From Spirodela intermedia (Eukaryota > Streptophyta > Magnoliopsida > Alismatales > Araceae), in assembly GCA_902729315.2 (NCBI GenBank), contig LR746269.1, positions 7,166,231 to 7,230,230 on the forward strand: a stretch of 64,000 bases of DNA. Direction: 5' to 3'. A program made the translations under genes and the position numbers. Of the stretch, positions 4,546 to 53,853 are shown in pieces. The notes below the pieces were generated by a model. That model searched no databases. It saw only the letters and a list, made by a program, of their open reading frames with translations, and had not been told where the DNA came from. Each line of letters opens with the position of its first letter. The first letter of the stretch is position 1.

Positions 4546-4668
4546 AGAATTCTCATGATCGTACATAGACCTAAGGTGGCCATATGCACTAGAGTCGATC
4601 TCTCAAGCAGACAACATTGTGGTAGAACATCGAGTAGGGAGGATGATTCAAGATCCGGGATGAAGTTA

Positions 4669-5609
4669 TTACGCCAGCGCCATGAACATCCATGAGCCGA
4701 TGGCCCAAATGCCAAGAACACGAATGTGAGGGGTCAAAAGGTTGCCTCCATGACCGCTTGGTGGAGGAGCTGGCACCGGAACTAGAGCTGCAATACATGG
4801 GATATCCAAATTCCCAACAAAAAGAAAAATATGGTAAGATTACCAAGCACAAGAAGGTGATCTGCGAGAAGGTTGCCTCCATGTCTGGGTTATTCAAGAC
4901 CTGGCCCAGGAGCTGGTGGAGTGCATTATAGCTGCATGAGTAACCTACGAGACGTTATTTCTCGAATTACCTCTTCCAATGCCGCTTCCACAAGCAATGA
5001 GGATCGTAGCGTTGACAGCCCTTATCGTCGCTCCGTTGTAGAACTTGAAGTTCGACAGTATCCCGTCGACGCAGCTAAGAACGAGCTGAGTTTCGGCCAA
5101 ACATGGTCCACTGCAGAAGGCGTCGACGGCGTTTCCAGACAGATCAGCGTCCCGTTCGCCGTCAACCTATACTGCTCCTGGCAGTTCCTGTAGATCTGTT
5201 TAAACCCTTCGGAACTTAAGAGATAAAAGGTACCACAGAGAGAGAGAGAGAGAGAGAGAGAGAGAGAGAGAGAGAGAGAGAGAGAGAGAGAGAGAGAGAG
5301 AGAGAGAGAGAGAGAGAGAGAGAGAGAGAGAGAGAGAGAGAGAGAGAGAGAGAGAGAGAGAGAGGAGTAATCGGCTTACGGATGTGTTGTTGAAGCAGAG
5401 AATGGCGTTGTCTACGATTGAGGATGGGTTCTGTGCTGCAGGTTGAGAGTGAAGGATTGATAGTTTTCCCTAGAAGAAGCTTTACAGAGAGAACCACGGA
5501 GAAAGAGAATGGTGAGGATGATGCACCAACCTTCACAGCAGGAGGGAGAAAATACGGCGACGAGCAGGAGGGCGAAGCCGAAGCGCGCGAGGGTGACTGA
5601 GGGAGCCAT
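4669..5609 (-). pseudogene. DUF7731-type secreted protein, block A1 copy, broken
   Basis: Minus-strand relative of the intact genes at 11510-12941 and 47295-48648. Exon 1 (5531-5609) encodes signal peptide MAPSVTLARFGFALLLVAVF; exon 2 is 5380-5435; exon 3 is 4971-5195. Exon 3 is one base short, with a deletion near 5140-5147 that shifts frame after the NGTL segment. About 420 bp running from intron 3 into exon 4 are gone, with CATTA(T) at the junction near 4924-4930, so the exon 4 acceptor and most of the Pro-rich repeat are lost. Exon 5 still encodes a hydrophobic C-terminus, LGIWAIGSWMFMALA, before its stop at 4669. Two independent lesions make it a pseudogene. The TATAAATA box at 5675-5682 survives. 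Confidence 0.8.
5237..5364. repeat. (AG)n microsatellite, about 128 bp
   Basis: An uninterrupted AG run inside intron 2 of the A1 DUF7731 copy. The same position carries about 95 bp in B1 and about 20 bp in B2, so it varies strongly among copies. On the sense strand of the gene it is a CT tract. Confidence 0.95.
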
Positions 5610-50611: not shown

Positions 50612-53600
50612 ATGGACAGTCTCTGCTTTCGGACTTCTCCAGGCCTCGTGGGGATGCCATTCCAGGCATCAGCCGCCGCCGGCGTGGGGGAGACGCTGGC
50701 TGCTTCTCGACGCAGTTACATGCAGCCAAGACAGCCGAAGATGATGCGACCCCGAGGAGGCGGATCAGTTGAGAGAGGAAATAAAGAGCTCGCTGGTCTA
50801 CAAGAGGAGAGAGGGAGGAGGGAACATGAGAGAGAGGCGGCATCCTCCTCACGGCACCGTAGGGGAAACTGGGTCTTCAAGATATTGCGCGTAGGATCGA
50901 TTTCGGCGGCGGAGGACCGGAAGCGAGGAAGAAGAAGCGGCGGTGGGGTGAATGACGATCAGATTTTTGATGATGGGGAACGTTGCTCGAGCTGCCAGGT
51001 CGGCGGTGGGGAGGGCGAAGTGAAGCTTGAAAGGGACTCCTTCAGGAGGATGCTCCGGCGGGTTTCTCTGCCGGAGGCCAGGTTATTCGGTCGGCTATCA
51101 TATCTCGGCAGGCTCGCGTATAATATCCCAAGAATCAAGGTGACCCGTTAAACCAGAACTCCGCGTTGTTCATCTGTTTCATCATTTCCCACTCTCCTGC
51201 AACTTCGAAATCTCTTCTTCTTCGTTCTGTCCGAGTAAGCTTTAGGTGGATTCTGCGATGATTCCTTCACTTTATGCATCCAAATGGGGAAAAATGATCT
51301 CTGATTATGATACCATCTCTGATCATCATTCGTTCAAGCGTGCCAAAAAAAAGGAAGGAAAAATATAGACCTTTGGCCTGAGTTCCCCTTAGTTCTGTGG
51401 AGCTACAAGGAGTCAAATCCTGGCTTCTGTTATTATTATTATTATTATTATTATTATTATTATTATTATTATTATTATTATTTGTGAGGGGACTGAAATC
51501 TGAAGCTTGTACATCCGTGGGAATGTTCAATTTTACGGCTTTAATGATGTACTGAGACAAATTTGGTATCGTTTCATGAAAATTGACAAATTTGTGCATA
51601 ATTGTGCCTCTTTTCCAGTCTGAGGATCTTCTAAAATGCCACAGATTGAGCTTTGTCACCTCATCCTTGGAAAATAAACCAGAAATCCCTACCCCCGAGG
51701 ATGTGAATTCAAGTTTCAAAGATCAAGAAATCCAGAAGCCAGAGGAGGAGAAAGAAGCAGAAGAAGAAGAGGAAAAAGCAGAAGAAGAAGAAGCAGAAGA
51801 AGAAGAAGAAGAAGAAGAAGAAGAGAAAGAAGAGGGCGAGAAGGTTGAGAGCCAATTGATGAGCGGGCTCCTCTTAAGCCCATCTTCTGCATATCGGATT
51901 GCTGCCTCTGCTGCCTCGTATCTCCAATCTCAAACAAGGACCATCCTGCCATTCAAGCCAGCAAGAACAGAGATGGTCACGAGTTCATCCACAGGAAGTA
52001 CTAGAGAAGAGGATGAAATGGAACCCACTAGCTCTTCAGTGGCTTCCTTTGTGGCGACCACAAGCTCTGTCACCGCAGTCGTCGCTGCAAAGGAGGAAAC
52101 AAAGCTAGTAATTGCCAATGATCTGAATTCCTCAGCGTCCTCGCCTTGTGAATGGTATATCTGTGATGATAATAGCATTGGAACCAGATTCTTCATCATT
52201 CAGGTGCTACTCTCTCCTCAGCATCCTGTCCTAGCCGACAATCCATATGATTGCTAATCTGGGCTCTGAGATTTCAGGGATCTGATTCTATAGCTTCTTG
52301 GAAAGCAAATCTCCTCTTTGAGCCTGTTCGATTTGAGGTAATGTTTTCCATGCCTGTCTTTAATCCTTAACAATTTCTCTTTAATTTGGGTCAAATCGAT
52401 GTGGGACTACTTCGAAGCCATGCTCAACTTATGAAAAACTTAGCATCATCCTAATCCTGCCGATTAAATATGAAACAAAAAACCTCTGCCCACATGAACC
52501 AGCAAGAAAAAAATTGCCCTTTTATAGTAACTACACCCTTGATCTTTGCTGTCTAGGGATTAGATGTGCTTGTGCACAGAGGTATCTACGAGGCGGCTAA
52601 AGGGATTTATCAGCAACTGCTGACAGAAGTCCGGAACCACTTGAATGCCCGTGGAACCTCCGCCACTCTCCGCTTCACCGGTCACTCTCTTGGGGGCAGT
52701 CTTTCTCTGCTTGTGAGTCTCATGTTACTGGTAAGGGGAGAGGTGCCGCCCTCATGCTTGCTCCCTGTTGTAACATTCGGGTCCCCATATATCATGTGCG
52801 GAGGGGACTACTTGCTTCAGAAGTTGGGCTTGCCTCTGAATCATGTCCAAGCCATAGCAATGCACAGGGACATCGTGCCGAGAGCTTTCTCCTGTAGTTA
52901 TCCAGATTATGTGGCCGAGATTCTCAAGGCCCTCAATGGGAAGTTCCGAGATCATCCGTGCCTCAAGAACAAGGTGAAAATTTTCTTTCTTGGATCTTCA
53001 TAGGATATGAACCGGGTGATTGGTTTCTGCTCTTCTCCATGCTGATAAATGAACTTATTATGTTTTTTCTGCAAAATAATTATCTGGGTCATCCTCATCT
53101 TGATAGGATATTCTGAAAATATGAAAAGGGTAATTGGTTTATTTTGTTTTGCATGCGATCAATTCATCTGGGTCATCATCTACATCATGATCTGGTTTCT
53201 GCTCTTCTTCATGATGATTATGAATTAGTTACTTTTTCTGCTGCAAAATTAAAAAAAATCATTTCTGTCGTTCAAATTTTTCCGGAATAATTCAAAAAAA
53301 GATTAGATTATCTGTTCGTTCTGATTCTGTTCTCAAACAGAAATTTCTATACGCTCCCATGGGAGAGCTTCTGATCCTCCAGCCAGAGGAGAGGTATTCT
53401 CCACACCACCACCTTCTTCCTCCCGACAGCGGCCTCTACTCCCTCGCCGGCGACCACCAGAGGACGCTTCTCGCCGCCGCCCAATCCCTGTTCCTCAACT
53501 CTCCCCATCCTCTGGAGATCCTCAGCGACCGCGCCGCCTACGGCTTCGAAGGAACCATCTATAGGGACCACGACGTCCACGCCTACGTGCGGTCCATCCG

Positions 53601-53853
53601 CGCCGTCATCCGCCGAGAGCTCGATTCCGTCCGGAAAGCCAGGAGCGAGCGGCGGCGGCGGCGGCGGACATGGTGGCCCCTCGTGGGTCTGGGGGGGATC
53701 GACGGCAGGCTCCAGCTCAGCGTCTCCGTCGTGGTGGAGGGCGGAAGGGAGTCGCTGAGGAGGCTGGGGCAGCTGGTTATCTCAAGGCATCTGAACCTCC
53801 TCCTCGTGTTCCTCCTCCCTGCGAAGATCCTGTTCATGGGCGGATCTACTTAG
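50612..53853 (+). CDS. PLIP: Plastid phospholipase A1, PLIP family (class 3 lipase)
   Basis: Five in-frame exons: 50612-51139, 51619-52203, 52278-52337, 52557-52973 and 53341-53853, giving 700 aa against about 650-680 in Arabidopsis PLIP1-3. The N-terminus, [14 protein letters not shown], and a basic Ser/Arg-rich region fit a chloroplast transit peptide. The conserved [18 protein letters not shown] starts the lipase part. A Glu tract spans residues 218-249. The catalytic core has TGHSLGG with Ser435, FGSP, HRDIVPR with Asp496, and a SPHHH cluster (His552-554) as the probable third triad member. Known PLIPs release acyl chains from sn-1 of plastid glycerolipids, feeding seed oil or ABA/jasmonate signalling. 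Start chosen by conservation in A1 (ATG) and A2 (ATA). Splice frames agree throughout. The extended acidic tract is the main oddity. Confidence 0.9.
51430..51482. repeat. (ATT)n microsatellite in PLIP intron 1
   Basis: About 17 units of TAT/ATT. On the minus strand it gives an Asn-rich open stretch that is not a gene. Confidence 0.95.

Follow-up and report, generated by a model that had tools for sequence, protein, structure and literature searches.

How one pair of neighbouring genes came to be spread over five unequal blocks that resemble each other in patches is the question raised by a locus on contig LR746269.1 of Spirodela intermedia (C6, 10,170,165 bp). The window analysed was the whole stretch of 64,000 nucleotides at C6:7166231-7230230. 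Genome-wide searches covered 136.5 Mb in 32 contigs. The pair consists of a DUF7731 gene on the minus strand and a PLIP2-like lipase gene on the plus strand. A tandem array that arose from one such pair and was then homogenised by ectopic gene conversion fits the data best, and we regard this history as probable. The features are compiled in Table 1.

Block structure of the array

Blocks were mapped by self-BLAST of the window, and the left side was extended by 30 kb of contig beyond the window start. An earlier note on this DNA had described four DUF7731/PLIP blocks, here A1, B1, A2 and B2. All four were recovered close to where it had placed them, and a chance likeness is excluded because E values reached down to 0. 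Far from sharing only short repeats, the blocks were 72-91% identical to each other over hundreds to thousands of bases. A fifth block, Z, was located left of the window. The array core was specific to C6: with 12277-14269 as the genome query, all nine matches lay in this region of the contig.

The left flanks of the blocks were of two types. Those of A1 and A2 were homologous at 75-84% (1-171 with 16647-16826, 398-1414 with 19337-20338, and pieces of 2807-3882 with 30091-31028). The flank of Z was of the B type, with 73% identity over approximately 1.8 kb to both 10025-11779 and 45812-47564. In the order Z, A1, B1, A2, B2, the flank types read B-A-B-A-B. The A-B junctions near 11355 and 47140, which had been said to match, were homologous. 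Here, 9492-12614 aligned with 45227-48399 at 91.4%, and a second homology piece joined 8884-9463 to 42642-43238 at 77%. A common stretch was also present at the Z-A1 and B1-A2 junctions (-2615..-2500 and 14413-14528, 92% over 117 columns). The proposal that an A-B tandem had been copied as one unit agreed with the flanks, but within the blocks no single tree fitted. An earlier round of duplication, suggested from a diverged DUF7731 relic, gained support, and the relic was confirmed. Its exon-1 end was partly repeated from 42642 onward in the self-BLAST.

Table 1. Blocks, genes, near-identical tracts and repeats of the array. Positions are those of the window, and negative coordinates are positions left of its start.
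Feature	Position	Strand	Description
Block Z	-7134..-3499		Fifth block, left of the window; DUF7731 profile match and flank comparison
Block A1	4549-8148		DUF7731 pseudogene (-), spacer, broken PLIP start (+); self-BLAST and alignments
Block B1	11353-14269		By self-BLAST; with B-type left flank 8884-14269, counterpart 42642-49874
Block A2	32749-37189		By self-BLAST; with A-type left flank 16647-37189, opened by inserts
Block B2	47138-51010		By self-BLAST; with B-type left flank 42642-51010; PLIP continues to 53853
DUF7731 model B1	11510-12941	-	Exons 12941-12863, 12763-12708, 12549-12324; exon 4 from 11640 or 11881 (other acceptor)
DUF7731 model B2	47295-48648	-	Exons 48648-48570, 48470-48415, 48334-48109; exon 4 from 47425 or 47666 (other acceptor)
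Older DUF7731 relic	8644-8965	-	60-67% identical to exons 1-3; best pieces with E 2e-6 to 2e-8
DUF7731 3' fragment	15549-15738	-	80-84% like the other copies
PLIP2-like lipase gene	50612-53853	+	In B2; only whole PLIP copy of the array
Tract T1	B1 11476-12598 = B2 47261-48383		1,123 bp, exact
Tract T2	A1 5296-5861, Z -4586..-4021		566 bp, 2 differences
Tract T3	A1 6102-6761, B1 13455-14114		About 660 bp, 98-100% in 150-bp windows; 84% beyond
Tract T4	A1 7257-8148, B2 50097-51010		Spacer and PLIP start, about 0.9 kb, 92.5%; 68-70% just left
(AG/CT)n repeat	12595-12692		In B1, within intron 2 of DUF7731; at the right end of T1
Dispersed-repeat insert, mobile-element-like	43236-45163		In the B2 unit, between the two A-B homology pieces; B1 is the empty site; AGG on both sides

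Near-identical tracts between the blocks

Four tracts of raised similarity were found between non-adjacent or adjacent blocks (T1 to T4). Both ends of T1, T2 and T3 lay inside collinear, less similar homologous sequence, the pattern by which gene conversion is recognised. T4 had a clear left end only, with the A1 homology stopping at 8148. Around T1, the identity of B1 and B2, read in 150-bp windows, was 82-95% to the left of the tract and 79-93% to its right. BLAST gave 77% and 82% at the far ends (8884-9463 and 13801-14265). After T1, the next longest exact run of B1 and B2 was 63 bp. T1 spanned intron 3 and sequence past the coding exons and the stop codon, all of it identical between the two blocks. 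The stretch is not slow-evolving in general because Z and B2 differ there, with 89.3% identity and 71 gapped columns in intron 3. In the third spacer segment (533 aligned sites) and the PLIP start (200), A1 and B2 shared 92.5% in both. The corresponding values were 80.9% and 75.0% for A1 with A2, and 79.3% and 78.5% for A2 with B2. None of the three comparisons with A2 contained an exact run of 60 bp or more.

Mosaic history of the blocks

Pairwise alignment of the blocks and trees of the shared segments, proposed as a check in the earlier note, gave trees that differed between segments. In the gene, Z was placed with A1 apart from B1 with B2 with a support of 100 (four-block segments). Spacer 1 placed A1 with B1 (support 93). 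Spacer 2 separated B1 and B2 from A1 and A2 with a support of 72, contrary to the distances, in which A1 and B1 shared 92.2%. The idea that every block has a single, undivided history was not upheld, neighbouring segments giving different block groupings.

The same change of partners was visible site by site. Z, A1, B1 and B2 split two against two at 90 sites, 75 of them grouping Z with A1, 15 grouping A1 with B1 and none grouping Z with B1. Left of B2 coordinate 48935, the split of Z and A1 against B1 and B2 was found at 73 of 75 sites; right of it, A1 and B1 stood against Z and B2 at 13 of 15. Polymorphic sites were shuffled 3000 times and the longest shared run per pair was recorded in 15 pair tests. 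The observed run was never reached for Z-A1 (the single set), A1-B1 (all three sets) and B1-B2 (two of three sets). The remaining tests reached it in 11, 26, 30, 125, 171, 300, 681, 2933 and 2972 of the 3000 shuffles.

DUF7731 genes

The DUF7731 profile PF24865 had five matches over the cut-off in the whole genome, namely Z, A1, B1, B2 and a copy on contig C12. The B2 model scored 120.3 bits (cut-off 27). That only B2 keeps both genes, as had been claimed, is correct, with the addition that the DUF7731 models of B1 and Z are intact as well. The A1 copy was a pseudogene with a frameshift in exon 3, and A2 retained exon 1 alone (32780-32857). Relatives of PF24865 occur in Amborella, taro and many legumes. 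B1 and B2 differ from these plant proteins by a 24-bp repeat in the exon-4 region, where two acceptors are possible. The encoded protein is probably secreted. The ratio of non-synonymous to synonymous differences (pN/pS) was based on 5-12 changes per pair, too thin to be used. A (CT)n run, considered as a break of the coding sequence, was rejected, since it falls into intron 2 of the exon model. A full-text literature search, with most subscription papers outside its reach, retrieved no paper on DUF7731.

PLIP gene

The B2 lipase model was obtained by joining exons by eye. It matched Lipase_3 (PF01764) with 89.8 bits (cut-off 22), resembled named PLIP2 proteins over the full length at approximately 48-57% identity and contained the GHSLGG motif. 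No notable difference from PLIP2-type plastid lipases was seen in these features. The Lipase_3 domain and the similarity to named PLIPs point to a PLIP2-type lipase with predicted plastid location and activity. Lipase activity is reported for PLIP3 (PMC13229349). A1 and A2 carried broken PLIP starts, that of A2 at 36977-37189. The first intron region of the B2 gene included 17.7 uninterrupted TTA triplets at 51430-51482.

Second assembly and other plants

Another S. intermedia assembly, presumably of clone 7747, held the Z-like protein P0001 and the PLIP protein P0009 on one sequence of 10,081,455 bp. A further protein, P0002, was encoded on a separate 35,766-bp contig and was B2-like; its upstream 22 residues matched B2 at 22 of 22 and B1 at 18 of 22 positions. 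Copies of the Z and B2 types are no peculiarity of a single assembly, since P0001 and P0002 occur in the second one. Among the second-assembly proteins matched, these two being Z-like and B2-like, none was B1-like.

Synteny of the pair, a further check that had been proposed, was assessed as linkage on one contig. DUF7731 and PLIP were linked in 11 of 12 other species with listed matches to both genes (12 of 13 with S. intermedia), counted from the best 120 of 1100 PLIP matches and with contigs of equal size taken as the same contig. The exception among these matches was Gastrolobium, with both on short scaffolds. In taro, Taro_017347 (DUF7731) and Taro_017344 (PLIP) shared one contig of 409,777 bp; a second DUF7731 and the second listed PLIP were on different contigs. 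In Tetracentron, tags 012310 and 012292 were on one chromosome, and tags approximately 150-200 genes apart were found in Phaseolus, Clitoria, Psophocarpus and Bauhinia. The linkage appears to be conserved in other flowering plants and to be close in taro, with spacing judged by locus tags alone. Within S. intermedia, the DUF7731 copy on C12 and a PLIP copy on C1 were considered as a second pair and rejected, being on different contigs; the searches gave no match to DUF7731 on C1 and none to PLIP on C12. In taro, the DUF7731 model P0004 also carried a fused ribosomal S14-type domain (PF00253); two adjacent genes were probably merged by mistake in this gene model.

Inserts and other repeats

Copies of one dispersed repeat of approximately 1.4-1.9 kb were present at 20402-23730, 28670-30093, 38582-40308, 41029-42640 and 43236-45163, some of them broken or nested. 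Genome-wide, this repeat had 3757 first-look candidates, of which 40 were scored. A Copia-like fragment (Pol_BBD) lay at 2631-2813 within an A-type left flank, and an inverted repeat pair of approximately 0.8 kb and 73% identity (17856-18669 and 35538-36343) in or near the A2 region. The G+C-rich segments 27676-27927 and 28030-28146 contained 30-bp and 38-bp tandem repeats and long open frames on both strands. An Rfam scan at the gathering threshold and a tRNA scan of the window gave no matches.

Discussion

The history would have started from one neighbour pair, which B2, the rightmost block, retains in full. B2 would be the ancestral place, judging from its neighbouring genes. Unequal duplications may have spread partial copies leftward, and at least one dimer step would account for the alternating left flanks, with older relics left behind. 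Later ectopic gene conversion would have moved short stretches between blocks, and the outcome is three intact DUF7731 gene models against one lipase gene. Gene conversion among paralogous copies accounts for tracts that are nearly identical although the collinear sequence around them is more diverged. Tandem duplication and gene conversion are both known processes, and tandem gene arrays with ectopic gene conversion exist, for example in plant resistance-gene clusters. Such clusters, as generally known, likewise have collinear partial copies, near-identical tracts that link non-adjacent members, and pseudogenes among intact members. Unlike them, two mutually unrelated genes were copied together here, the lipase being whole once and DUF7731 three times, in a plant that is mostly asexual according to PMC7645714. 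Among the entries listed by literature searches on gene conversion with Spirodela and on PLIP2 or plastid lipases, made with most subscription papers beyond reach, none gave an account of this locus.

Several points weigh against this history. The 2,500 bases directly left of the window are N, which hides the Z-A1 junction. The 15 permutation tests were made without correction for multiple testing, and it was the B1-B2 test restricted to columns also present in A2 that gave 171 of 3000. Comparison of B1 and B2 gave no indication of which copy was the donor. Short-read contigs are prone to break at (AG)n runs, and the right end of T1 coincides with such a run. The clone 8410 assembly, very probably the source of the window, is a MaSuRCA hybrid of Illumina super-reads and nanopore reads (PMC7645714).

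These last two points bear on an assembly artefact in which one copy was filled in with the sequence of its counterpart over the exact B1-B2 tract, the array being real and the other tracts older recombination. The exactness of T1 and the separate contig of the B2-like protein in the second assembly, which marks the region as hard to assemble, speak for it. However, T2, T3 and T4 are inexact and were not made by simply using one sequence twice. From the left end of T1, the nearest (AG)n run is 676-679 bp away, and approximately 100 differences would have to have been overwritten. We consider the artefact unlikely. Serial tandem duplication with unequal crossing-over and no conversion is a far less probable explanation. 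Stepwise duplication is expected to yield alternating flanks, and duplications of different age would yield different identities, but T1, T2 and T3, with collinear homology on both sides, would need two exchanges each, and the closest relative changes from segment to segment within a block. That the copies are kept alike by selection for a common protein is scarcely credible: Z and B2 differ at only 6 of 226 sites in exon 3, and frames and splice sites are kept in the three intact copies, but the intron and post-stop sequence of T1 is as identical as its exons, B1 and B2 show 5 differences in the 135 sites of exons 1-2, which are not part of T1, and T3 belongs to the spacer on the upstream side of the gene.

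Under duplication followed by conversion, rough ages can be given from the mutation rate of the sister species S. polyrhiza, 2.38e-10 per site per generation (PMC6423293, value for outdoor UV). Zero changes in 2 x 1,123 bp would place the upper 95% limit for T1 roughly near 5.6 million generations. By our own arithmetic with the same rate, the 8% flank divergence would correspond to roughly 170 million generations. A role for the (AG)n repeat in intron 2 as a tract boundary is no more than suggestive. Approximately 37,000 (AG)n loci, one per 3.7 kb, are reported for the genome (PMC7645714). Three of eight tract ends lay within 16 bp of an (AG)n run, and 7.3% of positions lay within 15 bp; the association is weak because a run that varies in length is in itself enough to end an exact match. 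Ectopic and possibly mitotic conversion with start or stop points at intronic (AG)n might, in a mostly clonal plant with very low point mutation, repeatedly rewrite the array and outpace mutation there, an idea we put forward as doubtful. If true, (AG)n-bounded conversion could be a general homogeniser of duckweed paralogues.

Trees built block by block are misleading for an array of this kind. The linkage with PLIP in other flowering plants offers a clue to DUF7731, a domain on which the literature search found no paper. If the tracts are real, the locus would be a compact test case for gene conversion in an almost asexual plant, with four tracts that differ in similarity, five blocks, sharp boundaries and two sequenced clones.
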